DNA of 34,453 bases from Gammaproteobacteria bacterium (GTDB lineage Bacteria; Gemmatimonadota; Gemmatimonadetes; Longimicrobiales; Gaopeijiaceae): NCBI GenBank assembly GCA_009840525.1, contig VXNP01000139.1, positions 1-34,453 of the forward strand, in the 5' to 3' direction. The position numbers and the translations under genes are program-made. The notes below the pieces were generated by a model. The model made no database searches and was not told where the DNA came from. It was given only the letters and a program-made list of their open reading frames with translations. Shown here piece by piece: positions 6,397-31,615 of the stretch (its first letter is position 1; every line of letters begins with the position of its first letter).

Positions 6397-6918
6397 TCAG
6401 TAGTGGTCGATACGGTCCTCGGTGGCATGGCCCCGGGCGGGGACCAGCACATTGCGCAGGAAGCTCGCGACCTCGCCCCCGTCCTGGTTCACGCCCACCG
6501 TGCGCACGGTGACGATGCCCTGGCCCGGGCGGGACCGCGACGCCCGCTTGCCGAGCACTTCGGAGTGCGCGTAGAGCGTGTCCCCGGCGAAGACGGGCGC
6601 TGTGAACTTCACCTCGTCCATGCCCAGGTTGGCGATCGCCTTCTGGCTCACGTCGGTGACGCTCATGCCGATCAGGAGTGCGAGCGTGTAGGGGCTCACG
6701 ACGAGATTGCGGCCGAACTCCGTCGCCTTGCCGTACTCGCGGTCGAAGTGCACGGGATGGGTGTTGAGGGTGAGCAGCGTGAACATGTGGTTGTCGTATT
6801 CGGTCACGGTCTTGCCGGGCCGGTGCTCGTACACGTCGCCGACCTCGAAGTCGTCGAGGTAGCGGCCGAAGGATTCCCGGTAGCGCTGGGGTCCGACCTG
6901 CTTGAAGTGCTGTGTCAT
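6397..6918 (-). CDS. MaoC-family enoyl-CoA hydratase/dehydratase
   Basis: This 173-residue hot-dog-fold protein has the motif TVTEYDNHMFTLLTLNTHPVHFD at residues 38-59. It resembles the mesaconyl-CoA hydratase / beta-methylmalyl-CoA dehydratase branch more than classical R-specific hydratases. The histidine equivalent to the catalytic one is H57. The usual catalytic aspartate position appears as N52, which I recall as common in this branch, so activity on a branched or dicarboxylic enoyl-CoA is plausible. A GAGGA about nine bases upstream of the ATG at 6918 supports the start. It follows the deacetylase-like gene by 46 bases and precedes the acyl-CoA dehydrogenase, consistent with successive steps on one CoA thioester. 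Confidence 0.88.
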   Translation of the reverse strand: MTQHFKQVGPQRYRESFGRYLDDFEVGDVYEHRPGKTVTEYDNHMFTLLTLNTHPVHFDREYGKATEFGRNLVVSPYTLALLIGMSVTDVSQKAIANLGMDEVKFTAPVFAGDTLYAHSEVLGKRASRSRPGQGIVTVRTVGVNQDGGEVASFLRNVLVPARGHATEDRIDHY

Positions 6919-13104: not shown

Positions 13105-14466
13105 GTGCCCTCGAGCCTGTTCGACAAACTGTGGGACAGTCACTGCGTCGAGACCGACGATGACGGGGTGAGCCTGCTGTACGTGGACCGGGTGGTCATG
13201 CACGAGCGCACGGGCAGCGTTGCCCTAGACACGCTGTTGCGCCGTGGACGGCCCGTGCGGCGCCCCGAGCACGTCTTCTGCGTCGTGGACCACGTGGTGG
13301 ATACCCGACCCGGACGCGGTGACGAGACGCAGGCGCCGGGGGGCAGGGACTTCATCGTGGCCCTCCGCCAGGGCGCCGCCGCATTCGGGTTGCGGATGTT
13401 CGACGTCGACGACCAGGATCAGGGCATCACCCACCTAGTGAGCGCCGAACAGGGCATCGCGCTGCCCGGACTCAGCATTGTCTGTCCGGACTCGCACACC
13501 TGCACGCTCGGCGCACTGGGTACGCTGGCGTTCGGTATCGGTACCAGCGAACTCCAGCATGTGCTCGCGACCTCGACCCTGCGCATGGCGAAGCCGGACA
13601 CGATGCGTGTGGTCATCGATGGCCGACTTGGCGCGCACGCGACCGCCAAGGATCTCGCGCTGTACCTTATCGGTGCGTACGGCACCGGGGGTGCCGGCGG
13701 CGCGGCCGTCGAGTTCGCCGGCGAGGCGGTCGCACGCATGGACACCGAGGCGCGCATGACCCTCTGCAACATGGCCGCGGAGTTCGGCGCTGCGACGGCG
13801 GTGATCGCCCCGGACGAAGCGGTGCTGAAGAGCGTCGTGGCAGCCCCGCTGGCGCCGGCCCGTGTCGGGGACTGGAGCGCCCTCAGGTCGGACTGCGGGG
13901 CGCGTTTCGACCGCGAGGTGGACCTGGATGCCGCCGCCATCGGACCCCAGGTCACCTGGGGGACGTCGCCGGAACAGTGTGCGCCCGTGCGGGCGCGAGT
14001 GCCTGCCGCCACCACGACGGCGGCGCGCCGGTCCCTCGCGTACATGGGGCTCGAGCCGGGGACGCCACTCGACTCGGTGCCGATCGATGCTGCGTTTGTC
14101 GGGTCCTGCACCAATGCCAGGATCGGCGATCTGCGCGCGGCGGCACGCGTGCTCGAGGGGCGCCCCGGGGCGCCCGGGGTGGCGGCCGTCTGCGTGCCGG
14201 GCTCGCGGCGCGTGAAGCGCGCGGCGGAAGCCGAGGGCCTCGACCGCGTGTTCGTCGAGGCGGGGTTCGAATGGCGGGAACCGGGTTGCTCGATGTGTTT
14301 CTTTGCCGGCGGCGAGACGTTCGGCGCTGGCAAACGCGTCATCTCCACCACGAACCGTAACTTCGAGGAGCGGCAGGGTCCCGGGGTGCGTTCCCATCTC
14401 GCGAGCCCCGGGGTGGTCGCGGCGTCCGCGGTGTGCGGTCGCATCGCGGCGCCCGATGCGTTGTAG
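13105..14466 (+). CDS. LeuC-type hydro-lyase large subunit (aconitase superfamily)
   Basis: This 453-residue large subunit carries the [4Fe-4S] ligands C335 (FVGSCTNARIGDLR), C395 and C398 (PGCSMC). It also has the LeuC-like start SLFDKLWDSH, CPDSHTCTLGALG, VTWGTSPEQ and NRNFEERQGPGVRSHL. It forms an enzyme with the adjacent LeuD-like gene that adds or removes water on a hydroxy-di/tricarboxylate. The family includes isopropylmalate isomerase, maleate hydratase and dimethylmaleate hydratase. No leuA or leuB is nearby, and it shares an operator with catabolic operons, so a catabolic hydratase is more likely than leucine synthesis. The GTG at 13105 matches the family N-terminus. Confidence 0.9.
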   Translation: MPSSLFDKLWDSHCVETDDDGVSLLYVDRVVMHERTGSVALDTLLRRGRPVRRPEHVFCVVDHVVDTRPGRGDETQAPGGRDFIVALRQGAAAFGLRMFDVDDQDQGITHLVSAEQGIALPGLSIVCPDSHTCTLGALGTLAFGIGTSELQHVLATSTLRMAKPDTMRVVIDGRLGAHATAKDLALYLIGAYGTGGAGGAAVEFAGEAVARMDTEARMTLCNMAAEFGAATAVIAPDEAVLKSVVAAPLAPARVGDWSALRSDCGARFDREVDLDAAAIGPQVTWGTSPEQCAPVRARVPAATTTAARRSLAYMGLEPGTPLDSVPIDAAFVGSCTNARIGDLRAAARVLEGRPGAPGVAAVCVPGSRRVKRAAEAEGLDRVFVEAGFEWREPGCSMCFFAGGETFGAGKRVISTTNRNFEERQGPGVRSHLASPGVVAASAVCGRIAAPDAL

Positions 14467-14471
14467 CGCGC

Positions 14472-15107
14472 GTGCAACCCCTGACGGTCCACGCGGGTGT
14501 CGTAGCACCGTTGCTTCGCGCCAACATCGATACGGACGCCATCATCCCGTCGCGCGAGATGCGCCGCGTCTCGAGGCAGGGGCTGGGCGAGGGCCTGTTC
14601 GCCAACTGGCGCTACCTGGATCCGGAGCTCCGCCGCCCGAACCCGGACTTCGTCCTGAACCGCCCGGAGCGGGCCGGCGCGAGCATCCTGCTCGGCGGCC
14701 CCAACTTCGGCTGTGGCTCGTCCCGGGAGTACGCCGTGTGGGCGCTCGACGAGTTCGGCATTCGCGTGATCCTCGCGCCCGATTTCAATCCCATCTTCCA
14801 CAAGAACTGCGTCGCGAACGGCCTGCTGCCGGCGCGGTTGCCGTTCCCGGCGATCCGAGAACTGGCGGCGTGGACGGATCGGGATCCGCAGGGCAACCGG
14901 CTGGTGGTGGATCTGCGTACCAGCCGGATCGAGGGGGGCGGTACGCCGGTGGCCTTCGACGTTTCCGGAGCCGATCGGATCCGGCTGCTGCGCGGCCTGG
15001 ACGACATCGCTCTGACCGATACGCGTGCCGCCGTCATCGAGGCCTTCGAGCGCAACCGTTTCGCGGCGCATCCATGGGTGCGCCTGCCGGAAGGAGCTGA
15101 CCGGTAG
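14472..15107 (+). CDS. LeuD-type hydro-lyase small subunit
   Basis: This 211-residue swivelling domain partners the large subunit encoded 5 bases upstream. It begins QPLTVHAGVVAPLLRANIDT like LeuD and has DAIIPSRE, GEGLFANWRYLD, PNPDFVLNRPE and the active-site loop FGCGSSREYAVWAL. Isopropylmalate isomerases normally read GSSREH at the last motif; here it is GSSREY, hinting at altered substrate choice. I use the GTG at 14472 because it gives the canonical N-terminus; an in-frame GTG at 14433 lies inside the large-subunit gene. The expected product is a heterodimeric cytoplasmic hydratase. Confidence 0.9.
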   Translation: MQPLTVHAGVVAPLLRANIDTDAIIPSREMRRVSRQGLGEGLFANWRYLDPELRRPNPDFVLNRPERAGASILLGGPNFGCGSSREYAVWALDEFGIRVILAPDFNPIFHKNCVANGLLPARLPFPAIRELAAWTDRDPQGNRLVVDLRTSRIEGGGTPVAFDVSGADRIRLLRGLDDIALTDTRAAVIEAFERNRFAAHPWVRLPEGADR

Positions 15108-15120
15108 CGTCGGGAGCCGT

Positions 15121-15278
15121 CTAGGAATCCTCTGAACAAGGCCATCCTTGGCCTTGTCCAGGTCGCACGCCAAAAGCGCGGTTTCGGCCTGCTCCACAAA
15201 TGCAATGGCTTACGCCATCGAATTTGGCGGCACATCCCTGTGCCGCAATAGGGAGGCTCCTAATCAGAGCCTCCCTAG
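15121..15278. mobile_element. MITE-like element with CTAG ends
   Basis: About 158 bp between two CTAG tetramers (15121-15124 and 15275-15278) and non-coding except for the SOUL gene tail. Inward-read ends are CTAGGAATCCTCTGAACAAG and CTAGGGAGGCTCTGATTAGG, matching at 14 of 20 positions and sharing CTCTGA. The interior has four perfect hairpins: ACAAGGCC/GGCCTTGT (15136-15157), ATGGC/GCCAT (15205-15218), GCGGCACA/TGTGCCGC (15227-15246) and the right-end stem (15249-15277). CTAG resembles the target duplication of IS5-type transposases, but no transposase is present. Confidence 0.55.
15249..15277. terminator. Strong hairpin between convergent genes
   Basis: TAGGGAGGCTC and GAGCCTCCCTA form an 11-bp perfect stem with a 7-base loop (CTAATCA). 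It lies between the LeuD-like gene (plus) and the SOUL gene (minus), and overlaps the SOUL stop codon. It has no U-run on either side, so it may act as a weak or bidirectional terminator, or only as the terminal inverted structure of the MITE-like element. Confidence 0.45.
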
Positions 15279-15896
15279 TCGTTCGCAGCGGCGGGCTGTG
15301 GCGGGGCAACGCGTATCAGGACTTCGTTGCGACGCAAGAAAGGGCAGCGTCCAGGGACCGTTATAGACGGCGGAGACGGGGTCGTCGACCGTGTCGATAC
15401 CGTCGCGTTCGAGCGCCGCGCGAAGCAGTTCGACGTGCCGCTCGAAGCGCGCCTCGGTGATGCGCCCGCGGTAGCGCACCACGGCGAAGGGCCCTCCGGG
15501 GACTTCCGCGATGGTGACGCTGTCATCGTCGGGCAGGGGCAGCGACTCAAGCTCATACGCTCGTTCCATCACGAATCGGTACACCGCGGATTCGCCGTCC
15601 GCGTCGCTCTCGCGATGTCGCGTGACGGGGACGGTCATGTTCATGCGCACCGGCTCCGCTGGCCCGGCGTCGCCCGGACTCCTGTTGGCGCCGAAGATGT
15701 AGCCGGCGAGCCGCCGGAACGCGACGTTGCCCGTGCGGTCGAAGCCACCGACCACGCTGGTCTCCGCCACGAGGTAGGGCTCGTAGTGGCGGATCTCGTA
15801 GCGATCGGTCTGCCGGATGGTCTCGTAGGTGGGCTCTTCGTAGGCTAGCGCCGCCGGCGTCATGAGCAGGAAGGGTAGGAGTCGCCAGCGTTTCAT
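15264..15896 (-). CDS. SOUL heme-binding family protein, C-terminal frameshift
   Basis: From the ATG at 15896 the protein has a signal-peptide-like start (MKRWRLLPFLLMTPAALAYE), then the SOUL domain: YETIRQTDRYEIRHYEPYLVAET, RRLAGYIFGAN, PVRMNMTVPVT and RYRGRITEARFERHVELL. SOUL proteins bind heme or related tetrapyrroles; this one should be periplasmic. The normal ending PFLRRNEVLIRV is present but in another phase. Around 15336-15346 (homopolymer runs) the frame slips by one base, so the encoded tail is PFLASQRSPDTRC and runs into the MITE-like element, stopping at 15264. Removing one base would end the protein at the TAG at 15277-15275, the MITE border, giving about 206 residues. It follows the MFS gene by 40 bases and may end operon C. 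Confidence 0.8.
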   Translation of the reverse strand: MKRWRLLPFLLMTPAALAYEEPTYETIRQTDRYEIRHYEPYLVAETSVVGGFDRTGNVAFRRLAGYIFGANRSPGDAGPAEPVRMNMTVPVTRHRESDADGESAVYRFVMERAYELESLPLPDDDSVTIAEVPGGPFAVVRYRGRITEARFERHVELLRAALERDGIDTVDDPVSAVYNGPWTLPFLASQRSPDTRCPATARRCERLGRL

Positions 15897-15936
15897 CCGT
15901 TGTGCGCCGTTGGCTACGGTCCTGTTGGTCCCGTAC

Positions 15937-17301
15937 TCACGGAGTTGCACTGAGCGTCTCGCCGATGTCCTCATCGAGGGCCTGGCGGTAGAGGCGCAGC
16001 GTCACCGGAGCGAGCGCGAGCACCGGCCCTCCGAACAGCACCGGCAGGAGGGCGACACTGTAGCGAACGCCTTCCACGCCGAACACCATGTCGTTCAGGG
16101 CGCCTACGAGGGTTGGTCCGAGCATGAGCCCGGCGAGGCTGATCGCCATGTAGTACAGCGCGACGACCTGCGCCCGGATGCGCGGCGGTGCGATGGGAAG
16201 CAGCGCCGTCACCGACGTGGCGGTGACGAAGGCGAGGCCGACGTTGCCGAGGGTGAGCAGGCCGAAAGCCGCCCAGGCGTTGTCGAGGAGCGGACCGATC
16301 ACGCACGGTGGTATGGCGAGCGCGAGCCCGAACAGGGCGATGCGCATGGGTGCGTCCCGGTAGCCGCGGGACGTGTAGCGGTCCGACAGCGCTCCGGCAA
16401 GGTTCACGGACAGCGGGCCGACGATGAGCAGCGTCACTCCGTTGGCGAAGGCGTAGTCCTCGACGGGCCAGCCGTAGGTGCGGGCGAACGTCACCGCCAG
16501 CCAGCCGTGGCTGTAGGCGATGATGGTCATGACGCAGAACACCGAGAGGAAGGTCGCGAAGACGGCGCCGTGCCGGCCGACAAAGGCGAACATGTGGCCG
16601 AGGTGACCTCCGGCGGTGGCCACGATGCGCCGCGGTTCCTGTACGAACAGGAACAGCACTCCGAGTACGACGCCGGGCAGCCCGACGATCAGGAACGCCG
16701 TCTGCCAGCCCGCGAGCGGACCGAGCAGGGGCCAGTCCGTCGTGTTGCCGCTGCCGACCCAGGCGAGCACGGCAGCGCCGAGCAGCGCCGCCAGCCCGCT
16801 GCCGAGCGAGATGGCACTCGAGTAGAAGGCGATCGGCTTGCCGCGACGCTCTTCCGGGTACGAGTCCGAGATCAGCGACATGGCGCAGGGACTCAGCGTC
16901 GCCTCGCCGACACCGACGGACATCCGGGCGACGAAGAGCTGCCCGAAGTTGCGGGCCAACCCGGACAGCGCGGTCGCGGCGGACCAGAGCGTTATGCCCG
17001 CGGCGACGATCCACGTTCGCCGGCTGCGATCCGCAAGGTAGCCGAGGGGCAGACCCATCGTGGCATAGAAGATCGCGAACGCAGGTCCGAGCAGCAATCC
17101 GATCTGGAAGTCGGACAGTCCAAGGTCGGCCTTGATCGGGTCGATCAGTAGGCCAAGGATGCTGCGGTCCACGAAAGACACGACGTACGCGACCGTCAGC
17201 AGCGAAACTATGTACCAGGCGCGGCGGGCGTCCGGGTAGGCTGCCGGGCGTGCCTCGGGGGTTTGGACCGCGGCGCCCCCGGCCTGCGTGGCTTCGCTCA
17301 T
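15937..17301 (-). CDS. MFS transporter (12 TM, spinster-like)
   Basis: This 454-residue membrane protein has a short cytoplasmic N-terminus, then a first helix with SFVDRSILGLL, the loop 2-3 signature GYLADRSRRTW near residues 88-98, and the helix 4-5 motif RMSVGVGEATLSPCAMSLISDSYPEERRGK. About twelve hydrophobic segments are visible. Proteins of this type import organic acids or amphipathic compounds in many proteobacteria. Its ATG overlaps the stop of the VOC gene at 17298 (ATGA), tying it to operon C, so uptake of the pathway substrate across the inner membrane is the natural guess; the direction is not provable. Confidence 0.9.
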   Translation of the reverse strand: MSEATQAGGAAVQTPEARPAAYPDARRAWYIVSLLTVAYVVSFVDRSILGLLIDPIKADLGLSDFQIGLLLGPAFAIFYATMGLPLGYLADRSRRTWIVAAGITLWSAATALSGLARNFGQLFVARMSVGVGEATLSPCAMSLISDSYPEERRGKPIAFYSSAISLGSGLAALLGAAVLAWVGSGNTTDWPLLGPLAGWQTAFLIVGLPGVVLGVLFLFVQEPRRIVATAGGHLGHMFAFVGRHGAVFATFLSVFCVMTIIAYSHGWLAVTFARTYGWPVEDYAFANGVTLLIVGPLSVNLAGALSDRYTSRGYRDAPMRIALFGLALAIPPCVIGPLLDNAWAAFGLLTLGNVGLAFVTATSVTALLPIAPPRIRAQVVALYYMAISLAGLMLGPTLVGALNDMVFGVEGVRYSVALLPVLFGGPVLALAPVTLRLYRQALDEDIGETLSATP

Positions 17302-17738: not shown

Positions 17739-18232
17739 TGGGAGTCCTCCGGCTCGTCGATGGCGGTGACCTGGTTGCACTCGAAGAAGTGGCCGTCGGG
17801 GTCGAACACCGACACGCCGATGAAGTGGCGCAGCTCGCCCCGGGCGCCGCGCGTCGACCAGACCCGGGGCGGACAGTGCACGCGCGTCCCGAGTTCTTCC
17901 GCGCGCTGCGCGACCAGCGCGGCGTCGGCGCTCTCCACCACGAACACCGGCATGCCGTAGCCGACCTCGGTGGGCGGCGGGGGGGCCGACCGCGGCGGTT
18001 CGAGCCATTGCAGCAGCCCGATCATGCCGAGCCGGTCGTGCTCGCCGCGCATGATGACCAGATGGGTGCGGTCCCCGGCGCTGCCCGCCGCGAGCCCGGC
18101 CCCGCTCAGCACGAACTCCGTATCCATCCACACCTGCATGCCGAGCACGTATTCGTACCAGCGCCTGCTCACCGCCATGTCCCGTACGAGCAGGGTGGTG
18201 CGCTTGACCATGTTGGGGAAGGCCTCGGTCAC
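17735..18232 (-). CDS. VOC family protein
   Basis: This 165-residue VOC-fold protein starts MTEAFPNMVKRTTLLVRDMA and has SRRWYEYVLGMQV, VVESADAALVAQRAEELG and the terminal SVFDPDGHFFECNQ strand, which keeps a glutamate at the metal position. The first-strand histidine is replaced by threonine. The GTG at 18232 overlaps the DUF1330 stop in a GTGA, and its own stop overlaps the next VOC gene. The back-to-back VOC pair looks like an old duplication followed by divergence. Function is unassigned; cleavage, isomerisation or binding of a small oxygenated compound are options. Confidence 0.83.
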   Translation of the reverse strand: MTEAFPNMVKRTTLLVRDMAVSRRWYEYVLGMQVWMDTEFVLSGAGLAAGSAGDRTHLVIMRGEHDRLGMIGLLQWLEPPRSAPPPPTEVGYGMPVFVVESADAALVAQRAEELGTRVHCPPRVWSTRGARGELRHFIGVSVFDPDGHFFECNQVTAIDEPEDSQ

Positions 18233-18525
18233 AACGTGGGCTCTTCCACGATCACGACCTGACAGTCGGCGATGCCCTCCCGGAGCGCCCGGGCGCGGAC
18301 GTACTCCGGCGAGTTCCAGAAGGCGAGGGCGGCTGCCCGGTCGGGCCAGCGCGACACGACGACGGACCCGCCCGGATGCTCGCCCTCGAGCACCTCGGCG
18401 CCCGCTGCGCGCAGCACGTACTCGCCGCCGAAGCGTTCCGTCAACGCGGCGGCCGCGGGGGCGTAGCCGGCCAGGAACCGCTTCCGGTCGTGGAGCTGGG
18501 CCGTCACGATGAGGTATGCCGTCAT
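18229..18525 (-). CDS. DUF1330 family protein
   Basis: This 98-residue protein has the dimeric alpha/beta ferredoxin-like DUF1330 pattern: MTAYLIVTAQLHDRKRFLAG, YVLRAAGAEVLEG, VVVSRWPDRAAALAFWNSPEY and the end QVVIVEE. Such proteins occur in many degradation operons as small isomerase- or cyclase-like proteins, but no defined reaction is established. It follows the CoA-transferase gene by 29 bases and overlaps the VOC gene by 4. It is hidden inside a much longer artefactual open frame on the same strand. The start is the ATG at 18525. Confidence 0.85.
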   Translation of the reverse strand: MTAYLIVTAQLHDRKRFLAGYAPAAAALTERFGGEYVLRAAGAEVLEGEHPGGSVVVSRWPDRAAALAFWNSPEYVRARALREGIADCQVVIVEEPTL

Positions 18526-18554: not shown

Positions 18555-19817
18555 TCAGGTCTCCAGGATGACGCCGTCCGCGATCAGTGCATCGATCTCG
18601 TCGGTGCCGCGGCCGGCGCCCCGGGCGGCCTGGCGGGAATGCTCGCCGACGTGCGGCAGGTGGCGCCGCACTTCGAACCGCCGTCCGGCCATCTCGAGGG
18701 GCAGCTTCGGGAGCCTCGTCGTGTCTCCGGCGTGTTCGCCGTCGGCGAGGCGTACCTCCGCGAGGCCGGCGTGTGCCAGGTGGGGATCCTCGAACAGGTC
18801 GGAGGGCCTGTTGATCTCGGCGAACGGCATGCCGGCACGGGCGAGCTGGGCGCCAGCCTCGGCCCGGTTCAGTCCCTCGAAGAGTTCCCGCAGCATTGGC
18901 AGGAAGCGGTCCCGGTGCGCGACCCTGCCGGCGTTGTCCGCTAGCACCGGGTCCGCAGCCAGCGCATCCAGCCCAAAGTCCTTGCAGAACGTGCGCCACT
19001 GAGTATCGCTGACGACGGCGACGAAGAGCTGGCCGTCGGCGCAATCGAAGAGGTCGTAGACGCCCCAGGCGGCGCGCCGTACGGACATTGGTGCGGGCTC
19101 CTCGCCTAGCACCGCCTGCTGGGCCATGTGCTGCCCGACGAGGAACGCCGTGGTCTCGAACAGCGCGCTGGTGACCCGCTGCCCGCAGCCGGTGGCGTTG
19201 CGTTCGGCGAGTGCGGCGAGAATAGCGATCACGCCGAACATGCCGCCGGTGATGTCGACGATGGACGATCCCGCGCGCATCGGCCGGCCCGGAAGCCCCG
19301 TCATGTACGCGAGGCCGCCCATCATCTGCGTGACCTCGTCGAGGGCCACGCGCTCGGCGTACGGGCCGTGGAGGAATCCCTTCAGGCTGCAATAGACGAG
19401 CCGGGGGTTGCGTGCGGACAGTTCCGGGTAGCCAAAGCCGAGGCGGTCCATCGCGCCGGGCCGGAAGTTCTCGAGCACGACATCGGCCGTGTCGAGGATG
19501 CCATGGACCAGTTCGCGGCCCCGCGATTCCTTGAGGTCGGCGCAGAGGCTGCGTTTGTTGCGGTTGTACATGGCGAAGTAGCCGCCGCCGGATCCCGTCA
19601 GGCGACGGGTGTTGTCGCCTCCGGGCGGTTCGACCTTGAGGACATCGGCGCCTAGGTCCGCGAGAATCATCCCCGTCGCCGGTCCCATCACCATGTGCGA
19701 GAACTCGACGACGCGCAGGCCTTCGAGCGGCAGCGTGTCCGGCGTGGGTCCTTCGGCCGGACCGTGCGGAGCACCGGCCGTCTCTCCGACCGCCGTGTCG
19801 GGACCGTCGCGAACCAT
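18555..19817 (-). CDS. Class III (CaiB/BaiF) CoA-transferase
   Basis: This 420-residue protein is longer than the other two CoA-transferases owing to a proline-rich 30-residue N-terminal extension before LEGLRVVEFSHMVMGPATG. GADVLKVEPPGGD, NRNKRSLCADLK, ENFRPGAMDRLG and the probable catalytic D188 in SSIVDITGG are clear. It is the first gene of the minus operon C, divergent from the HMG-CoA-lyase-like gene with site C between them. A CoA-transferase paired with this lyase family usually means that the transferase makes the CoA ester that the lyase cleaves. The acid could be a branched hydroxy-dicarboxylate (inference). The ATG at 19817 has only a modest GAGG upstream. Confidence 0.9.
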   Translation of the reverse strand: MVRDGPDTAVGETAGAPHGPAEGPTPDTLPLEGLRVVEFSHMVMGPATGMILADLGADVLKVEPPGGDNTRRLTGSGGGYFAMYNRNKRSLCADLKESRGRELVHGILDTADVVLENFRPGAMDRLGFGYPELSARNPRLVYCSLKGFLHGPYAERVALDEVTQMMGGLAYMTGLPGRPMRAGSSIVDITGGMFGVIAILAALAERNATGCGQRVTSALFETTAFLVGQHMAQQAVLGEEPAPMSVRRAAWGVYDLFDCADGQLFVAVVSDTQWRTFCKDFGLDALAADPVLADNAGRVAHRDRFLPMLRELFEGLNRAEAGAQLARAGMPFAEINRPSDLFEDPHLAHAGLAEVRLADGEHAGDTTRLPKLPLEMAGRRFEVRRHLPHVGEHSRQAARGAGRGTDEIDALIADGVILET

Positions 19818-19885: not shown

Positions 19886-20842
19886 ATGGCTACGGGGGGC
19901 GCGACGAGAGACGTGTACGTGAGCGAGGTGGGCACCAGGGACGGCCTGCAGAACGTCGACACGGTCATGCCCACCGACGCGAAGAAGGCTTGGATCGCCG
20001 CCGAGGCCGCCGCCGGCGTGCCCGAGATCGAGGTGGGTTCGTTCGTGCCGGCGCGCCTCCTGCCCCAACTTGCGGACACCGCCGACCTCGTCTCCTTCGC
20101 CCGGGCACTTCCCGACCTAAGCGTCGCGGTGCTCGCGCCCAACCTGCACGGCGTGCGGGCCGCGCTCGAGAGCGGCGCGCACCGGATCTCGGTACCCCTG
20201 TCGGTCAGCGAGACGCACAGTCTCGCGAACGTGAAGAAGACGCACGCCGAGATGTTCGAAGAGATCGCGGCAATGGTGGCCGCCATCGCGGAGCGTCCGT
20301 CGCAGGGGCGGCCGGCGTTGGAAGTCTCCCTCTCGACGGCGTTCGGCTGCACTCTCGAAGGGCCCGTCCCGGAGGATCGCGTCGTGGCCATGGCGGAGCG
20401 CGTGATCGAACTCGGAGCGGACGACGTCGGGCTGTCGGACACGACCGGGTACGGCAACCCCGCGCAGGTACGGCGGCTCACGCGGCGTGTTCACGCGGCC
20501 GTCGGCGCCGACCGGATGACCGGCATTCACCTGCATAACACTCGTGGGCAGGGTCTGGCCAACGTCATGGCGGCCCTGGACGAGGGCCTTGCCACCATCG
20601 ACAGCTCGCTAGGGGGGCTGGGCGGTTGCCCGTTCGCGCCCGGCGCGAGCGGCAACATCGTTACCGAGGACCTGGTCTTCCTGCTCGAGTCGATGGGGTT
20701 GTATACGGGCATCGACATCGAGCAACTGCTCGCGGTGCGAGACGGTGTGCAGGCGGCGCTCCCGCACGAGACGCTCTACGGTTTCGTCGCGGACGCCGGC
20801 CTGCCCAAGGGGTTCGAGTACGCCCGGGCCGCGCTCGACTAG
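19886..20842 (+). CDS. HMG-CoA-lyase family enzyme
   Basis: This 318-residue TIM-barrel lyase has the catalytic signature EVGTRDGLQN (R18, D19), the metal-binding HLHNTRGQG (H215, H217), and the flexible-loop cysteine C248 in GLGGCPFAPGASGN. All residues needed for retro-Claisen/aldol cleavage of a 3-hydroxy-3-carboxyl acyl-CoA are present. True HMG-CoA lyases usually read VGPRDGLQNE, so this may be a relative acting on a different substrate such as a citramalyl-CoA or alkyl-malyl-CoA. It heads the plus side of operon C, opposite a CoA-transferase, and is followed after 36 bases by the nitrilase-fold gene. GGGAGAG about 8-14 bases upstream supports the ATG at 19886. Confidence 0.9.
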   Translation: MATGGATRDVYVSEVGTRDGLQNVDTVMPTDAKKAWIAAEAAAGVPEIEVGSFVPARLLPQLADTADLVSFARALPDLSVAVLAPNLHGVRAALESGAHRISVPLSVSETHSLANVKKTHAEMFEEIAAMVAAIAERPSQGRPALEVSLSTAFGCTLEGPVPEDRVVAMAERVIELGADDVGLSDTTGYGNPAQVRRLTRRVHAAVGADRMTGIHLHNTRGQGLANVMAALDEGLATIDSSLGGLGGCPFAPGASGNIVTEDLVFLLESMGLYTGIDIEQLLAVRDGVQAALPHETLYGFVADAGLPKGFEYARAALD

Positions 20843-20878: not shown

Positions 20879-21913
20879 ATGGCAGGTTACACGGCCCTCG
20901 CCCTGCAGACGCGGGTGGAAGCGGTGTCCGGTCTCCCGGATGTTGCGTCGTGCCGGGACAGCATCGCCCGCTCCCTGGAACGGGTGGCGGGGCAGGTGGC
21001 CGCGAGCAGGGCCTTCATCGGTCCGCACGTGGCCCTCGTCGTGCTGCCGGAGTACTTCCTCACCGGTTATCCGATGGGTGAGTCCGCGGAGTCGTGGCGC
21101 GCGCGCGGCTGTTTGGAGCCCGCCGGGCGGGAGTACGACGCGCTCGGGGCGATCGCCGCGTCGAACGGCGTGTTCCTGTCCGGCAACCTGTACGAGACGG
21201 ATGCGCACTTCCCGGAGCTCTACTTCCAGACCAGCTTCATCGCGAACGACGCTGGCGACATCGTGCTCCGCTATCGACGCCTCATCTCGCAGTTCGGGCC
21301 GACGCCGTACGAGGTGCTGGACCGCTACCTCGACGTCTATGGCGCCGACAGCCTGTTCCCGGTGGTGGAGACGGAGCTGGGACGACTGGCCGCTGTCGCA
21401 TCCGAAGAGATCGTCTTCCCGGAGATCGCCAGGGCGCTGGCGCTGCGCGGCGCCGAGGTGCTCTGTCACTCGTCCTCCGAGGTCGCGAGTCCCGTCCTGA
21501 CGCCAAAGAACGTCGCCAAGCGGGCGCGCGCCTACGAGAATCACGTCTATGTGGTCTCGGCGAACACGGCGGGTGTCAGCGGCATCGACCTGCCCAACGA
21601 GTCGGTGGACGGCGCCTCACAGATCGTCGACTACGAGGGACGCGTGCTCGTCGAGGCCGCCGGGGGAGAGTCCATGGCCGCCCACACGGACATCGACGTG
21701 GACGCGCTACGCGCCTACCGGCGCAGGCCGGGGATGTTCAACGTGTTCTCGCGCCAGCGGCTCGCGCTGTTCCGTGTCTATGCCGACAGCGAGGTATGCG
21801 CTCCCAACAGCCTGCTCGACGATGGGGGCGTCGTCGCCCCGGCGCGGGACCACTTCCTCTCGATGCAGCGCCAGGCGATCGCGCAACTGCTGGAGCGCGG
21901 GATTCTGGTTTAG
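20879..21913 (+). CDS. Nitrilase-superfamily protein with altered catalytic triad
   Basis: This 344-residue carbon-nitrogen hydrolase fold protein has LPEYFLTGYP with the catalytic-glutamate position E58. The lysine motif reads LRYRRL, so the position of the catalytic lysine is R134. The nucleophile elbow reads AAVASEEIVFPEIARALALRGAEV, with S175 (TCC) where the family has cysteine. Only Glu of the Glu-Lys-Cys triad is conserved. AGG/GGAGG about 9 bases upstream supports the ATG at 20879. It is co-directional with the lyase gene. It might be a binding or regulatory pseudoenzyme, a serine variant, or affected by a sequencing error at one base. An intact homologue would hydrolyse an amide or nitrile. 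Confidence 0.85.
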   Translation: MAGYTALALQTRVEAVSGLPDVASCRDSIARSLERVAGQVAASRAFIGPHVALVVLPEYFLTGYPMGESAESWRARGCLEPAGREYDALGAIAASNGVFLSGNLYETDAHFPELYFQTSFIANDAGDIVLRYRRLISQFGPTPYEVLDRYLDVYGADSLFPVVETELGRLAAVASEEIVFPEIARALALRGAEVLCHSSSEVASPVLTPKNVAKRARAYENHVYVVSANTAGVSGIDLPNESVDGASQIVDYEGRVLVEAAGGESMAAHTDIDVDALRAYRRRPGMFNVFSRQRLALFRVYADSEVCAPNSLLDDGGVVAPARDHFLSMQRQAIAQLLERGILV

Positions 21914-23261: not shown

Positions 23262-24044
23262 TTACCGCGTGTAATCCTCCATGCTGAGGTTCATGCGGTA
23301 GTGGAAGTGGCCGGTGTGATATTGGCATTGCAGCAGGTCGACCAGGTCTCCCTCGGTGTCGAAGGAGTAGCGTACGAGCGTGAGCACCGGATCGCCGGGT
23401 ACGAGCCTGAGTTGCTCGGCGACCGGCGCCGCCGTGGCCGCGGCGCTCAGATGCTGTTCGATGCGGGCGATCCGGTGGCCGTTCTCCGCCATGATGTCGA
23501 ACCGCAGCCGGCGCTCGATCGCGTCGGCGTCGAAACCGTGCTTGATCCCGCGGGTCCAGCTCTCGTAATAGGCGAACGGCGTGTGGTCTTCGCGATAGCG
23601 GACCCGGACCACGTAGTGCACTGGTTCGTCCGCCGGAATCCCGAGTTCCTCCACCAGATTCGCCGGCGGCGGGCGCCGGTCGATGTGCAGTACGCGCACC
23701 AGCGTGCTGCGAGACATCTGCGCGAGCTTCTCGAGCATGCCGACCAGCGGCGCCTCGACATCGGACGCCGGGGCCTGGAACACGACGTGGCTGCCCCTGC
23801 CGCGCTTGCGCTGTATGAGTTCGTTGGCGACCAGCAGGTCCATGGCGCGCTTGGCCGTCACGCGGGAGACGCCGAAGCCCTCCGCGAGCTGGGCCTCGGT
23901 CGGGAGCTTCGCGCCGAAGCCCGGTTCGCCCCCGAGGATGCGTTGCTTCAGGAGCTGGTAGAGCTGGTGATACAGCGGAACGGGACTGTCCGCACGCAGC
24001 GAGTCCAATTCCATGGGGGTGAACAGACGCTGCAGTTCGTCCAC
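23262..24044 (-). CDS. GntR/HutC-family transcriptional regulator
   Basis: This 260-residue repressor-type protein has an N-terminal winged helix (about residues 22-88: PLYHQLYQLLKQRI, LPTEAQLAEGFGVSRVTAKRAM, NELIQRKRGRGSHV) and a C-terminal UTRA ligand-binding domain (about 110-258, with LRLVPGDPVLTLVRYSFDTEG). HutC-type regulators bind short palindromes as dimers and release them when a pathway metabolite binds UTRA. The GTG at 24044 has GGAGG eight bases upstream. It is the third gene of the minus operon that starts beside site D, so autoregulation is likely. It is the only DNA-binding regulator in the window and the best candidate for sites A-D (inference). Confidence 0.93.
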   Translation of the reverse strand: MDELQRLFTPMELDSLRADSPVPLYHQLYQLLKQRILGGEPGFGAKLPTEAQLAEGFGVSRVTAKRAMDLLVANELIQRKRGRGSHVVFQAPASDVEAPLVGMLEKLAQMSRSTLVRVLHIDRRPPPANLVEELGIPADEPVHYVVRVRYREDHTPFAYYESWTRGIKHGFDADAIERRLRFDIMAENGHRIARIEQHLSAAATAAPVAEQLRLVPGDPVLTLVRYSFDTEGDLVDLLQCQYHTGHFHYRMNLSMEDYTR

Positions 24045-24088: not shown

Positions 24089-25558
24089 TTATGACCGAAA
24101 CATCGGGCCGGCACCGGTACGGAGCACGCCCGCGAGGATGGTATGCGCCTCTCGTGCGTCAATGAGGTCGAGAAGCATGCGGGTCAGGCGAGCGGGTTCC
24201 GGCGGCACCTGGTCGCGTTCCAGGGACTGCTCACGGAGCCAGTGCCAGCCGCGAAACAGGTGCGCGCCCGAGGTCTCCGGGGCGAGATCCGGAGGCGGCC
24301 CGGAGTAACCGGGCAGGTCGAGGGACACATGCACGAGTCTCGGATCGGCGACCGCGGCCGTCCGGGCGACGCCGTCGGACGCGCCGACACCGGCGACCTC
24401 GAGGTGATGGGCGCCCAGCGCGTCGGTCACGCGGCGCACGGCCTCGACGCAGTGGACCAGGCCGAGCGCGTCCGGCAGGGCCGAGCCGGCGTGTCCCGGC
24501 AGGTCGAGTAGCGCGTCGCCGCTGGCCAGGATGGGCTCGACGGTTGTTGTGGACGCCCCCAGCGGTGGTATGACGAGGCGGGTCACCGGTTCTTTGCGGC
24601 CGGGTCGGTAGCAGATCTGGCCGAAGCTCGCGTCCACGTGCCGCGTACGGCCTGTGTCGAGGCAAAGCTCCGCGGCGTCGACGAATCGCTCGGGCAGGAT
24701 GTGGCCGAGGTGCTTGTCGAGGCTCGCCCAGCGCTCCTCCGAGGACGGCCCGCAGTGCGCCATCGTCACGTTGGGGCCCCAGTCACAGGCGTCGAGGCGT
24801 CCCGTCCACCTTGTGAGGATGCTGCCCTGCCAGCGCAGCATCACGAGAGGGATCGCAATGGGCCGCAGGTTCTCCACCCGTTCGTTGCGGAAGGCTGCAC
24901 GATAGACTGCCTCGTAGCGCGGTCCTGCCCGCAGGTAGCCGCGTGCGGTGACGTGCATCGCCTCGGGGGCGCCGAGCGCCGGAGAGATGCGGTTTTCCGC
25001 TGCGGGGTACTGCCACGGGAAGAACAGCGTGGCGTCGTGGGCGGCATGCCAGGCGCGGGCGAGGTGGCTGCCGTCGGCGCTCGCGGTAACGTCTGGCAGG
25101 TAACCGGCCGTGATGCGTTCCCGGTCGGCGTCGTCGAAGGCCGCGGCGTTGTCGAGCATCACGCCACACACGGCACGGGGTTCCGCTTTCGCCCATTCGA
25201 CGGCGATCTGGGCTCCGGTTGCGGAACCGTACACGGCCACGCGATCGAGTCCGAGGGCGTCGCGCAAGGCCGACATCGCCCGTACGCAGGGGGCAAGGTC
25301 GTGCACGGGCCCGGGGAGAGGATCCGAGTCGCCGAATCCGGGCGTGTCCGGCGCGATGACCGTCACTCGATCCGCGAGTCGTGTCATGAGCGGCGAGAGG
25401 AAGCCGGAGTCGAGCGGGGAGGGGTGCAGGAGGAACAGCGGCGGCCCGTTCCCGGTCACACGGTAGTGCAGGTCCAACTCCGCGCCGTCCACGTCCACGC
25501 GGGCGGTCGCCCGGCGTATCGCGGCGTCCGACGGGACTCCAGAGGACGCGACGGTCAC
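24089..25558 (-). CDS. Tandem alpha/beta-hydrolase-fold protein
   Basis: This 489-residue protein appears to have two alpha/beta-hydrolase units. The first (about 28-300) has LFLLHPSPLDSG, VIAPDTPGFGDSDPL and the nucleophile elbow VYGSATGAQIA, where the nucleophile position of G-x-Nuc-x-G is A113. The second (about 325-489) repeats the pattern: LVIPPLGASTT, LLDLPGHAGSALPD, VRRVTDALGAHHLEVAG and an elbow VGASDG without a clear nucleophile. Some alpha/beta-hydrolases lack a serine and act as lyases, cofactor-free oxygenases or binding proteins. The GTG at 25558 overlaps the FAD-oxidase stop (GTGA). It lies between that gene and the regulator, and could sense or process the same metabolite. Confidence 0.78.
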   Translation of the reverse strand: MTVASSGVPSDAAIRRATARVDVDGAELDLHYRVTGNGPPLFLLHPSPLDSGFLSPLMTRLADRVTVIAPDTPGFGDSDPLPGPVHDLAPCVRAMSALRDALGLDRVAVYGSATGAQIAVEWAKAEPRAVCGVMLDNAAAFDDADRERITAGYLPDVTASADGSHLARAWHAAHDATLFFPWQYPAAENRISPALGAPEAMHVTARGYLRAGPRYEAVYRAAFRNERVENLRPIAIPLVMLRWQGSILTRWTGRLDACDWGPNVTMAHCGPSSEERWASLDKHLGHILPERFVDAAELCLDTGRTRHVDASFGQICYRPGRKEPVTRLVIPPLGASTTTVEPILASGDALLDLPGHAGSALPDALGLVHCVEAVRRVTDALGAHHLEVAGVGASDGVARTAAVADPRLVHVSLDLPGYSGPPPDLAPETSGAHLFRGWHWLREQSLERDQVPPEPARLTRMLLDLIDAREAHTILAGVLRTGAGPMFRS

Positions 25559-27138
25559 AGTCCGAGCGCGCCCGGGTTCACGCGGTCTTCGGGATCGATC
25601 TCGCGCTTCAGCGCCTGCAGCAGCGTGCGCGGCGGCTCCGCCAGGTCTCGGGCGAAGGGGTACAGGCGGCCGATCTGCAGGTGCACGGCGCCGTGCGCAT
25701 GCAGCGTCTCGATGACTTCGTCACGTAGCCACAGGACTTCAGCACGGGCCGCCGGATTGTCGGGAAAGTCGTTGGTCTTGCGCAGCACCTGGGCCTCGAC
25801 GGTACACCGGTGGAGCGCGGTCAGCCGGTCGGGCCAGTAGAAGACGGGTTCGATCACGAAGCAGTCCGTGTCCGCGTAGGTGAAGAGTGCCCCGTGCACG
25901 ATGCCGTGCTCCGCACATGCTGCGCCGTTGCGCTCGAACAGCGTGAGGATGGCGTCGTAGGCGGCGATGGCCCGCGAATGCGGTACGAGTCCGTGAACCG
26001 GCAGCCAGCGTTCCCCGGAGGGACCGATCATGGAGTTGAGCGGGCCGAAGGGGTGGGCGCGGGTGACCGTCGGGATGGTGTTCTCCACTTCGTCGCCGCC
26101 CGCGTCCCGTCCGATGCGGCGGATGCGCTCGGCGGCGTCCGCAGCCGCCGCGCGGGTGCGTTCCTCGATCATGAAATGCGCGGAGTAGCGCTCCTCCGGC
26201 AGGAACCGCCGGCCGGCGGCGGCGACGCGGGCGCCGGTCCTCAACTTGTCGAGGACGCCGCCCTGGGCGACGACCGTCTGGCCCAGGGTCTTGACGTCCC
26301 GCGCCAGCGACTCGCGTTTCATGCGCTGCGCCTGCAGGGTGGGGTCGAATCCGAAGCAGGCCTCCGCGAGGCCTTGCCGGGACACCTCCGACATCGCGCG
26401 GAACAGCCCGCCGTGGTCGGCGAAGGTCATGCTGACCCCGATGCGCGCCTCGGCCACTGGCACGAGCTTGAGCGTCGCCGTCGCCTTGATGCCGAACGCG
26501 CCGGCGTCGCAGGTGAACAATCCCGTAAGGTCCGGCCCGTAGTGGCGGAAGAACGGCGTTGCCCCGGTGCGCGCGGCGGCGCCGGTCCGCAGCACGCGGC
26601 CGTCCGCCAGCACGATCTCGAACCCGACGACGGAGTCGGCCGCGCAGCCGTGGCGTCCACTGCCCCAGAAGAGCGCGTTCTGCGACAGGGAACCGCCTAC
26701 CGTCGCGTGGAGGCCGGAGAGGGTGCCCCAGAACGGCGTGCGCACCCCCAAGGGTTCGAGTGCCTCGTGCAACGCCTTCCAGGTACAGCCGGCCTGCACC
26801 GTGACGTACATGTCCTCTGTGTTGACCTCGAGTACCTCGGCCATGGCCGCCATGTCCAGGCACAGGGTGCGCTCCCGTTGGCAGACGTAGCCGCCGCTGT
26901 AGGACATGCCGCCGCCGCGCGGGACCAGGACGAACTCGTGCGCAGCCGCGAACAAGACCGTCTCGACGAGATCCGCGATCCCGGACGGGCGCACCACCGC
27001 GGTCACCGTATTGGCGTCGCCGGAGATGTCCTGGCCGTACAATGCCCGGGACGCCTCGTCGACCAGTACGCTGTCGGTCCCGATGCTCTCCGCCAACGAT
27101 GCCAGGACGTTCCCGGCCATAGGTTGGGATGCGGCCAT
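25555..27138 (-). CDS. FAD-linked oxidase (VAO/PCMH family)
   Basis: This 527-residue flavoprotein of the vanillyl-alcohol oxidase / p-cresol methylhydroxylase superfamily has the FAD pyrophosphate loop PRGGGMSYSGG at about residues 73-83 and a second FAD segment from LSGLHATVGGSLSQNALFWG to CAADSVVGFEIVLADG. The C-terminal cap ends DPEDRVNPGALGL, as in the family. The reaction may be oxidation of an alcohol, hydroxy acid, amine or phenol; the electron acceptor is unknown. I start at the ATG at 27138, where GGAGG sits eight bases upstream; the earlier in-frame ATG at 27204 lacks a ribosome-binding site. It is the first gene of the minus operon opposite the amidohydrolase operon, across site D. 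Confidence 0.87.
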   Translation of the reverse strand: MAASQPMAGNVLASLAESIGTDSVLVDEASRALYGQDISGDANTVTAVVRPSGIADLVETVLFAAAHEFVLVPRGGGMSYSGGYVCQRERTLCLDMAAMAEVLEVNTEDMYVTVQAGCTWKALHEALEPLGVRTPFWGTLSGLHATVGGSLSQNALFWGSGRHGCAADSVVGFEIVLADGRVLRTGAAARTGATPFFRHYGPDLTGLFTCDAGAFGIKATATLKLVPVAEARIGVSMTFADHGGLFRAMSEVSRQGLAEACFGFDPTLQAQRMKRESLARDVKTLGQTVVAQGGVLDKLRTGARVAAAGRRFLPEERYSAHFMIEERTRAAAADAAERIRRIGRDAGGDEVENTIPTVTRAHPFGPLNSMIGPSGERWLPVHGLVPHSRAIAAYDAILTLFERNGAACAEHGIVHGALFTYADTDCFVIEPVFYWPDRLTALHRCTVEAQVLRKTNDFPDNPAARAEVLWLRDEVIETLHAHGAVHLQIGRLYPFARDLAEPPRTLLQALKREIDPEDRVNPGALGL

Positions 27139-27210
27139 CGCAAGCCCTCCTCGATACCGCCGGCCGCAGGCGAAGGCCCTGCGGGCGCGCGGCGTTGACT
27201 CCATTGAATC

Positions 27211-27228: not shown

Positions 27229-27259
27229 GTGTTTTAGTGTCGCGATCAGGGTGTCCCGC

Positions 27260-27973
27260 ATGCCGGACATGCAGAGTTCGGACCTGACCCCCCGGCAGTA
27301 CTGGGCGGAGGTCAAGTCGAATCCCCGCCGCGCCCGGTTCGGCTTCGGAGAGAAGGCGGCCCTCATCAACATCGACCTGCAGCGGGCGTACACGGACGTC
27401 GACAGCTTCGCGACCGCGTACCGCACCGACCCCAACCAGATTCCCTATATCAACCGCCTCGCGCAACTCGCGCGGCTCAGGAACATGCCGGTGATCTGGA
27501 CGTACGTGGCGTACATGCGCAATGCGGACGACGCCGGGGTGTGGGGGACGCGCACGAACACCGAGGACTCGCTGCAGAACATCGCGGAAAACGGCGAACG
27601 GGCCGAACTCGACCCGCGCCTTGACGTGGACCTTGACCGCGACGCCGTCGTCAACAAGCGCATGGCGAGCGTGTTCCACGACAACCCGATCCCGTCGCTG
27701 CTCGTCTGGCACAAGGTGGACACGGTGATCCTCACGGGCGGCAGCACCTCGGGTTGCGTGCGCGCGTCGGCGGTGGGGGCGCTCTCGCATGGATACCGCA
27801 CGATCGTTCCCGAGGAGTGCGTCGCCGACAAGCACGAGATCCCGCACTTCGCGAACCTCTGCGACATCATGCTGAAGTACGGGGACGTGGAGCCTTTCGC
27901 GGCGGTCGAGGCGTGGCTCGCCGACCATGCGGGTTGTCCGCCCATCCGCGCCGCGCGCGGCGTGCCGTTCTGA
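27260..27973 (+). CDS. Isochorismatase-family amidohydrolase
   Basis: This 237-residue cysteine hydrolase has the family triad: D39 in LINIDLQ, K133 in VVNKRMASVF and C166 in TGGSTSGCVRASA. All three are intact, which suits N-carbamoylsarcosine, maleamate or related half-amide hydrolysis better than isochorismate (no enterobactin context). I prefer the ATG at 27260, with AGGG eight bases upstream, over the GTG at 27251. It is the first gene of plus operon D, followed 11 bases later by two deacetylase-like genes. A ring-opening imidase followed by a half-amide hydrolase would release ammonia and a dicarboxylic acid (inference). Confidence 0.9.
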   Translation: MPDMQSSDLTPRQYWAEVKSNPRRARFGFGEKAALINIDLQRAYTDVDSFATAYRTDPNQIPYINRLAQLARLRNMPVIWTYVAYMRNADDAGVWGTRTNTEDSLQNIAENGERAELDPRLDVDLDRDAVVNKRMASVFHDNPIPSLLVWHKVDTVILTGGSTSGCVRASAVGALSHGYRTIVPEECVADKHEIPHFANLCDIMLKYGDVEPFAAVEAWLADHAGCPPIRAARGVPF

Positions 27974-27984
27974 GCGCGCCCGCG

Positions 27985-28923
27985 ATGCGCGCGGATCTCG
28001 ACCTTTACCGCTACCGGGCCTGGGACGAACGGCTGCCGATCCGCTGGCCGGGCGGCGCGCGGCTCGCGTTCTGGGTCGCTCCCAACATCGAGTTCTACGA
28101 ACTCGAGCCCCCGGCGAATCCCGCGCGCCGCGCCTGGCCGCGACCCGTGCCGGACGTGCAGGGCTACGCCACCCGCGACTACGGCAACCGGGTGGGTCAC
28201 ATGCGCATGATGGACTTGCTCGACCGCTACGGCGTGCGCGGCTCGGTGAGCCTGTCGGCGGCGATGTGCGACCACCATCCGGAGATCATCGAGCTCTGCG
28301 CCTCGCGCGGCTGGGAGTTCTTCAGCCACGGCATCTACAACACGCGCTACGCCTACGGCATGGACGAGGCGCAGGAACGTGCAATGATCGAAGACTCCGT
28401 GGACGCGATCGCGCGCCACACGGGACAGCGTTGCGCGGGGTATCTCGCGCCCGCGCTCACGCACACGGAACGGACCCTCGACCTGTTCGCGGAGGCGGGC
28501 GGCATCTATACCTGCGACCTGTTCCACGACGACCAGCCGACGCCGGTGCGGGTGCGCTCGGGCAAGCCGTTCGTGTCCGTCCCCTACTCGCTCGAGCTCA
28601 ACGACACGATCGCCTACGTGGTCAACCGGATCGAGCCGCGCCGCTACGGCGAGATGATCAGGCAGGCGTTCGACCGGCTGTATCGCGAGGGCGAGCACGG
28701 GGGGACGGTGATGTGCGTGCCGCTGCACGCATACCAGGTCGCCCACCCGCACCGGATCCGGGCGTTCGAGGAGGCGCTGGCCTACGTGGTCGGTCACGAA
28801 AACATATGGCTCGCCACGGGTCGGGAGATCGCCGAGCACTACATCGCGCACTACCATGACCTCGACACGGCACCCGCCGGCGGGATCGGCGACGGAGACG
28901 CCGGCGAGGGAGGTACGCCGTGA
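27985..28923 (+). CDS. PuuE-like polysaccharide deacetylase family protein, first metal histidine missing
   Basis: This 312-residue NodB-fold protein begins RLPIRWPGGARLAFWVAPNI and has RDYGNRVGHMRMMDLLDRYGVRGSVSLS, as in a widespread uncharacterised branch. The H-x4-H motif reads GWEFFSHGIYN: W110 replaces the first histidine and H115 remains. The C-terminal VPLHAYQVAHPHR could supply another ligand. No signal peptide, so it is cytoplasmic. It overlaps the next paralogue by 4 bases (GTGA), and the pair may form a hetero-oligomer. Role: imidase/amidase-like hydrolysis or ligand binding; which one cannot be decided here. Confidence 0.83.
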   Translation: MRADLDLYRYRAWDERLPIRWPGGARLAFWVAPNIEFYELEPPANPARRAWPRPVPDVQGYATRDYGNRVGHMRMMDLLDRYGVRGSVSLSAAMCDHHPEIIELCASRGWEFFSHGIYNTRYAYGMDEAQERAMIEDSVDAIARHTGQRCAGYLAPALTHTERTLDLFAEAGGIYTCDLFHDDQPTPVRVRSGKPFVSVPYSLELNDTIAYVVNRIEPRRYGEMIRQAFDRLYREGEHGGTVMCVPLHAYQVAHPHRIRAFEEALAYVVGHENIWLATGREIAEHYIAHYHDLDTAPAGGIGDGDAGEGGTP

Positions 28924-29858
28924 CGCTCGACGCGGACCACCTCCGGTATCCGAACCGCCGCCAGGGCATGGACCACGACCGCTACGACTGGTCGATGCTC
29001 GCCGCGCGGGCCCCGATCGCGTGGCCCGGCGGGGCCCACGTGGCACTGTGGGTGAACGTGGCGGTGCAGTTCTTCCCGCTCGACCAGGCCGGCAAGCCGT
29101 TCCCGCCGCCCGGCGGTATGAGCACGCCCTATCCGGACCTGCGCCACTTCACGCTGCGGGACTACGGCAACCGCGTAGGCATCGTGCGCTGCCTGGAGGC
29201 GCTCGACGCGTTCGGCATCCGCCCGACGTTCGCCGTGAACGGAGCCGTTGCGGGGCGCTGTCCGACCCTCATCGAGCGGCTCGTTGCGCGCGGCGACGAG
29301 ATCCTGGCGAGTTCCTGGCACATGGACACGGTGCACCACGGCGATATGGACGCCGTCGCAGAGCGGGAGCTCGTCGATCGCACGCTGACGACGCTGCGCG
29401 AGCGCACTGGACAGCCCGTGGAGGGCTGGGTGAGCCCAGCCGGTTCGCAGAGCCACCGCACGCCGGACATCCTGGTGGAGCATGGCGTCCGCTACATGGG
29501 CGACTGGATCAACGACGAACTGCCGTACGCGTTCCGCACGGACGCCGGGGAGGCCGGGGAGATCGTCGCCCTGCCCCTGTCCCTCGAACTCGACGACCAA
29601 TTCCTCATTGGCGCCAGCCTGCACTCCGAGTGGGAGTACGCGACCCAGGTGAAGGACGCCTGCGACTATCTCGTGGCGGAAGCTGCGGCGACCGGCCGGG
29701 GGCGACTGCTGGCGCTGTCGGTACACCCGTGGCTGCTCGGGCAGCCGCACCGCATCGGCGCGTTCGAGTCGGTGCTCGAGCACCTTGCCGCGACCCGCGG
29801 TGTCTGGTCCGCCTCGGCTTCGGAAATCGTCGCTGCGTGGCGTGACCAGCAGGACTGA
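28920..29858 (+). CDS. PuuE-like polysaccharide deacetylase family protein, metal histidines missing
   Basis: This 312-residue paralogue of the previous gene shares the start pattern (APIAWPGGAHVALWVNVAVQFF) and RDYGNRVGIVRCLEALDAFGIRPTFAV. The region of the H-x4-H motif reads GDEILASSWHMD, with D126 and S131 in place of the two histidines. The nearby WHMDTVHH stretch and a C-terminal SVHPWLLGQPHR could supply ligands, but the canonical site is gone. The GTG at 28920 has GGAGG eight bases upstream. Equal lengths and the coupled overlap suggest a stable complex with the 27985 product, possibly an inactive partner subunit (inference). Confidence 0.83.
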   Translation: MTLDADHLRYPNRRQGMDHDRYDWSMLAARAPIAWPGGAHVALWVNVAVQFFPLDQAGKPFPPPGGMSTPYPDLRHFTLRDYGNRVGIVRCLEALDAFGIRPTFAVNGAVAGRCPTLIERLVARGDEILASSWHMDTVHHGDMDAVAERELVDRTLTTLRERTGQPVEGWVSPAGSQSHRTPDILVEHGVRYMGDWINDELPYAFRTDAGEAGEIVALPLSLELDDQFLIGASLHSEWEYATQVKDACDYLVAEAAATGRGRLLALSVHPWLLGQPHRIGAFESVLEHLAATRGVWSASASEIVAAWRDQQD

Positions 29859-31578: not shown

Positions 31579-31615
31579 GGTCGTGTTTCCTTGCCTAAGG
31601 TGACGGTCGCGGCCA

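Follow-up and report, generated by a model that had tools for sequence, protein, structure and literature searches.

What does a nitrilase-fold protein do once two of its three catalytic residues have been exchanged? In textbooks, the nitrilase superfamily is recognised by its Glu-Lys-Cys triad. The window analysed here, meaning the whole stretch of 34,453 nucleotides, encodes a protein of this fold in which only the Glu of the triad is found. A preliminary description had placed Ser at the Cys site and Arg at the Lys site; when we re-read the open reading frame (ORF), Glu58, Arg134, Ser175 and their coordinates were all exact and needed no correction, and the serine codon is indeed TCC, one base from TGC. 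The positions of interest are listed here, with counts from the 82-protein alignment and the tree described below.

20879-21913 (+), nitrilase-fold protein of the Glu-Arg-Ser clade, ORF of 344 aa
21050-21052 (+), Glu58 codon GAG, the triad Glu, kept; 82/82
21227-21229 (+), Gln117 codon; Gln in 82/82 of the clade, Asn in 41/47 rows outside it
21278-21280 (+), Arg134 codon CGC, Lys site; Arg in 82/82 of the clade, Lys in 47/47 outside
21401-21403 (+), Ser175 codon TCC, nucleophile site; Ser in 82/82
21404-21409 (+), Glu176-Glu177 codons, giving the SEE signature; both 82/82
21467-21469 (+), His197 codon; 81/82, and His too in the nearest Cys-type sisters
21479-21481 (+), Glu201 codon; 82/82

A nitrilase fold with a different active site

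The sole Pfam match of the ORF is CN_hydrolase (PF00795, E = 2e-28), with 99.8 bits against a gathering cut-off of 23.2. In an alignment to solved amidases, R134 falls in the Lys column and S175 in the Cys column. By its fold the protein belongs to the nitrilase superfamily, yet it departs from the catalytic definition at two of the three residues, Lys and Cys, and retains the Glu (Glu58, 82/82). The preliminary description of a nitrilase fold lacking its catalytic Cys and Lys is borne out by the Pfam match, the structural model and the 82-protein alignment.

Matches to families of defined function are weak. The best NCBIfam matches are the equivalogs for formamidase AmiF (69.9 bits, cut-off 406) and aliphatic amidase AmiE (58.4 bits, cut-off 427), both far under cut-off, and the N-carbamoylputrescine amidase AguB equivalog scores 53 against 410. 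A sequence search of the PDB returned canonical amidases and nitrilases throughout and no solved structure from the Ser/Arg clade. The AlphaFold2 model, built from 80 input sequences, has a pLDDT of 95.7 and a pTM of 0.94, and matches aliphatic amidase 2uxy at VIA Z 33.8 (2.6 Å over 288 residues). In the model, S175 starts the helix that follows strand 168-174, which is the usual nucleophile elbow, E58 ends strand 51-58 and R134 comes directly after strand 128-133. Both the nitrilase fold and the nucleophile elbow therefore appear intact in the prediction.

Conservation and origin of the Ser/Arg clade

A scan of 84,980 genomes yielded 264 relatives, of which the best 80 were kept (50-86% identity). 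The scan patterns correspond to residues 59-66 and 103-110; conservation within these segments is search-biased. Because the patterns contain neither residue 134 nor residue 175, the Ser175/Arg134 result is not a product of the search. Across the 82 aligned proteins (best 80 of 264 kept), E58, R134, S175, E176, E177 and E201 are invariant, and each position of the full clade signature (E58, Q117, R134, S175-E176-E177, H197, E201 and K210, all present in the query) is found in 81 or 82 of 82. Ser175 is never Thr, Ala or Gly in these sequences, and few positions of the protein are better conserved than its active-site residues. The 82 proteins come from Pseudomonadota, Bacteroidota, Acidobacteriota, Actinomycetota, Cyanobacteriota, Bacillota and Chloroflexota. 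A tblastn search of plasmids found a Nonomuraea protein, 51% identical, with the same Ser and Arg. About 89 distinct rows with the E/R/S combination were counted.

Pairwise dN/dS between the window gene and its six nearest relatives is 0.13-0.25, showing that the gene is under purifying selection; together with the Ser/Arg conservation, these values rule out a recent pseudogene. We found no close orthologue in 10 congeners and none in 394 genomes of the class at E <= 1e-15; the gene is therefore patchily distributed. Independent profile searches, which also gave many relatives of other types, identified the Ser clade by residue in 7 of 337 genomes of one class and 3 of 296 of one phylum, centre genomes included. 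No phage match was found that would indicate a phage origin of the gene.

We built a tree of 78 rows with the two catalytic columns left out. The 31 Ser/Arg rows all group in a single clade (SH-aLRT 100, stem 0.99), nested in a branch otherwise made up mostly of Cys/Lys proteins. Whether Ser and Arg define a clade, a point raised by the preliminary description, is answered in the affirmative. Support is only 83-92 at the deeper forks, and the placement of the long branches L211 and L036 is unsure. Arg134 is found only together with Ser175, and Lys is present in 47/47 non-clade rows, even in those whose Cys site holds Ala, Gly, Leu, Val, Thr or, in two canonical-looking rows, Ser; accordingly, the changes from Cys to Ser and from Lys to Arg go together. 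Three more positions have co-changed in the Ser clade: Asn117 to Gln, residue 176 from aromatic or small to Glu, and Trp210 to Lys. These changes amount to a concerted re-modelling of the active site, with Glu58 kept, that was followed by strict conservation; the site has not been eroded or lost.

Other active-site types occur among the remaining nitrilase-fold proteins. Ala-type proteins that keep Glu and Lys are found in Haladaptatus, Natrinema, Tsukamurella and Flammeovirga (L035, L038, L039, L040), and the Tsukamurella gene (L039) sits among cyclase-family, salicylyl-CoA 5-hydroxylase and indolepyruvate oxidoreductase genes. A Gly-type protein from Novosphingobium (L036) combines Glu to Gln with Cys to Gly (Q/K/G) and is a candidate true pseudoenzyme. 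Two otherwise canonical nitrilases from relatives of the window's genome, L012 and L010, carry Ser in place of the Cys but still have the Lys (ISYDRHFPE and LSYDVQFPE). Finally, another nitrilase-fold protein from the branch that contains the Ser clade is encoded near the Ser gene in three loci (L106:176-1528 (+), L071:4618-5991 (+) and L072:3769-5073 (+)) and about 27 kb from the Ser gene of Parahaliea (L164); these second proteins keep Glu and Lys, but their nucleophile site holds Leu, Val or Thr.

A catabolic neighbourhood and a partner aldehyde dehydrogenase

We compared the gene neighbourhoods of 82 loci, most of about 15 kb, with those of 20 control nitrilases. The loci are not independent, many being from related bacteria, and the controls are drawn from the window's relatives, so the p-values serve as an indication only; the spread over phyla is the stronger argument for association. 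Nine neighbour families are each absent from the 20 controls: FAD_binding_4 oxidase (28 of 82 loci), DUF1330 (27), DUF3598 (23), LeuC-like (20), CaiB (20), DUF1838 (19), HMGL (17), PuuE-like (15) and isochorismatase (15). Almost the whole conserved set lies within the 34 kb of the window:

2812-3981, CaiB
5166-6386, acyl-CoA dehydrogenase
6397-6918, MaoC/mesaconyl-CoA-hydratase-like
6965-7870 (-), PuuE-like polysaccharide-deacetylase-fold gene, scoring under the PuuE cut-off
7996-9237, methyltransferase
10531-11565, MDR oxidoreductase
11651-13072 (-), aldehyde dehydrogenase (ALDH), apparent orthologue of the gene directly after the Ser gene in other phyla
13105-15107 (+), LeuC/LeuD-like aconitase-family hydratase subunits (13105-14466 and 14433-15107)
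18229-18519 (-), DUF1330 protein; 27/82 loci, directly upstream in 15
18555-19817 (-), CoA-transferase family III (CaiB); 20/82
19886-20842 (+), HMG-CoA-lyase-like gene, 36 bp upstream of the Ser gene; 17/82 loci, directly upstream in 13
23262-24044 (-), GntR/UTRA regulator; 29/82
24089-25558 (-), alpha/beta hydrolase; 15/82
25555-27204 (-), FAD_binding_4 oxidase; 28/82
27251-27973 (+), isochorismatase-like amidohydrolase; 15/82
27754-29858 (+), two polysaccharide-deacetylase/PuuE-like genes (27754-28923 and 28920-29858); 27754 is a mechanical start that falls within the isochorismatase ORF
30679-31797 (-), DUF1838 protein; 19/82

The window also carries glyoxalases, an amine oxidase and a TonB receptor, and as a whole it reads as a catabolic gene cluster.

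The closest association is with an ALDH, which is present in 47 of the 82 loci. In 26 loci from seven phyla it lies directly downstream of the Ser gene on the same strand, often within 20 bp. The ALDH of the window is 51% identical to the partner ALDH of locus L050, whereas the runner-up in the genome reaches 32%. ALDHs are also found near 5 of the 20 control nitrilases, where they represent unrelated subfamilies, sharing 26-35% identity with that of the window; those of L099 and L103, two of the 47 loci, are likewise distant. The Ser clade is genetically tied to one distinct ALDH subfamily and to a set of catabolic genes.

Other neighbours were noted. A SOUL heme-binding protein is encoded inside the cluster (15264-15974 (-)); since SOUL and NhaA are found near the Ser gene in this window only among the 82 loci, they fall outside the conserved set, and a heme theme based on the SOUL protein was rejected. 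A conserved neighbour family of about 240 aa (MTHKTIRGTITYYSHKPERMG...; L054:4477-5196 (+) and 17 further loci) has no Pfam or NCBIfam match. Members of CpeT/CpcT, a phycobilin-lyase family, and short proteins with a weak resemblance to them are repeatedly encoded next to the Ser gene in heterotrophs, Bacteroidota among them (L085:9436-10440 (-) and L104:6303-6941 (+)); CpeT/CpcT-like neighbours occur in 12 + 10 loci.

Possible functions and comparison with known amidases

We infer that the Ser/Arg protein is an active catabolic enzyme, because the changed active site is invariant and the enzyme-gene partner is conserved. In MtCPA, Glu48 accepts a proton, Lys121 donates one and contributes to the oxyanion hole, and Cys158 is the nucleophile; the C158S mutation strongly diminishes reactivity (PMC4812014). 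The Ser/Arg clade must therefore work differently.

To the reading we prefer, a Glu-Arg-Ser acyl hydrolase with a serine nucleophile and Arg134 at the oxyanion, we give a probability of roughly 0.4. Ser175 would attack an acyl group more reactive than usual, and Arg134 would hold the oxyanion. Several points count against it. In a canonical setting the exchange of Cys for Ser greatly lowers reactivity, as in MtCPA C158S. Arginine is a poor proton donor, and close branches with Ala, Leu, Val or Thr at the Cys site persist without a nucleophile while keeping Glu and Lys.

These same branches speak for an active enzyme that forms no covalent intermediate, which we consider somewhat improbable. 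Here Arg134 would hold the substrate by a carboxylate or an enolate, Ser175 would merely donate or accept a hydrogen bond, and Glu58, with Glu176, Glu177 and His197, could act in acid-base chemistry on a bound water or a C-H bond, as in hydration, tautomerisation or ring opening. Arginine typically binds carboxylates and is not a usual member of acyl-transfer triads, and both His197 and the additional invariant acidic residues are close to the site along the chain. Nonetheless, the absence of Thr, Ala and Gly at position 175 is stricter than a mere hydrogen bond would predict, and the elbow appears intact in the model.

It is unlikely that the protein has given up catalysis and serves as a ligand-binding sensor, carrier or regulatory subunit for the ALDH or another enzyme of the cluster. 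Such a role would suit the loss of the canonical Cys and Lys, the tight gene order with the ALDH and the loci (L106, L071, L072) with a second nitrilase-fold protein lacking the nucleophile, but not the exchange of active-site residues for specific new ones that then became invariant, nor the retention of Glu58 throughout the clade.

The use of another cysteine as nucleophile, which the preliminary description had allowed for, is highly improbable: Cys196 adjoins His197 in the query, but 50 of the 82 proteins have Leu, Val or Ile in its place, and no column has Cys in at least 90% of the clade, the maximum being 71% (column 13). A base error at 21402, also suggested there, or a recent inactivation in this genome, either of which would fit with TCC being one base from TGC, is refuted to the point of negligible probability by relatives down to about 50% identity that all have Ser and Arg, by the use of both codon families for Ser175 (TCN in 76 and AGY in 5 of 81 relatives) and by the low dN/dS.

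As for the acyl hydrolase and its pathway, the neighbouring genes suggest a tentative scheme. The Ser protein might open or cleave a ring-derived C-N or C-O acyl bond to give a semialdehyde, which the partner ALDH might then oxidise. The PuuE-like and isochorismatase-like hydrolases, the LeuCD-like hydratase, the CaiB CoA-transferase and the HMGL-like lyase could take a branched dicarboxylate to central metabolism. Going by family names, the order may be imide, half-amide, branched dicarboxylate, hydration, CoA transfer and lyase. The CpeT-like and DUF3598 (23 loci) neighbours faintly hint at tetrapyrrole-derived maleimides as a candidate substrate class. Taken together, we tentatively propose, at slightly less than even odds, a natural Glu-Arg-Ser centre, either with a serine nucleophile or newly non-covalent, that arose once from Cys/Lys ancestors, extends over at least seven phyla and acts with its own ALDH in an undescribed catabolic step, possibly the breakdown of a cyclic imide or lactam (for example one derived from tetrapyrroles).

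The well-known nitrilase fold thus seems to have been re-tooled for different chemistry. Searches of an open library for Ser-type nitrilases, DUF1838/DUF3598/CpeT clusters and imide catabolism did not find the Ser/Arg clade, nor any description of it, although databases such as CDD may list it as an uncharacterised subgroup; we also found no assay or structure for any member. Automatic annotation calls such proteins carbon-nitrogen hydrolases from the fold alone, a naming that the uniform Glu-Arg-Ser clade makes unsafe. The clade is also a natural test of serine use by the nitrilase fold, and its tight link to one ALDH subfamily, as well as to genes resembling those of imidases, amidases, hydratases and lyases, points to a catabolic pathway amenable to genetics. 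Culturable hosts include Brevundimonas, Phenylobacterium and Sporosarcina.

Among known systems, AmiE (2uxy, 2plq) and AmiF (2e2k, 5g3o) share with the Ser protein the fold (267-290 residues, Z about 33), the triad Glu and the elbow position. They differ in having Cys and Lys where it has Ser and Arg, in overall sequence (about 20% identity) and in helix 143-154 between the Lys and Cys sites, a feature of the Ser protein's own branch. The Cys/Lys sisters (L206, L207, L208, L209 and L210), known here from genome sequence alone, are of the same branch and share the TTP-type helix and the HPTSE/HLTSE motif with His197 and Glu201, and three of the five also have RYRK; unlike the Ser clade, they keep Lys, Cys, Asn117 and Trp210. 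The Ala-, Gly- and Leu/Val/Thr-type relatives have in common with the clade the branch, the extended helix and an elbow without Cys, but they keep Lys, have a residue other than Ser at the Cys site and form separate tree groups. Engineered C-to-S mutants of the nitrilase superfamily, such as MtCPA C158S (5h8k, 5h8l), likewise carry Ser where this fold places its nucleophile. MtCPA C158S is a laboratory mutant with Lys kept, constructed for its strongly lowered reactivity (PMC4812014), whereas the Ser clade is natural and has Arg as well.
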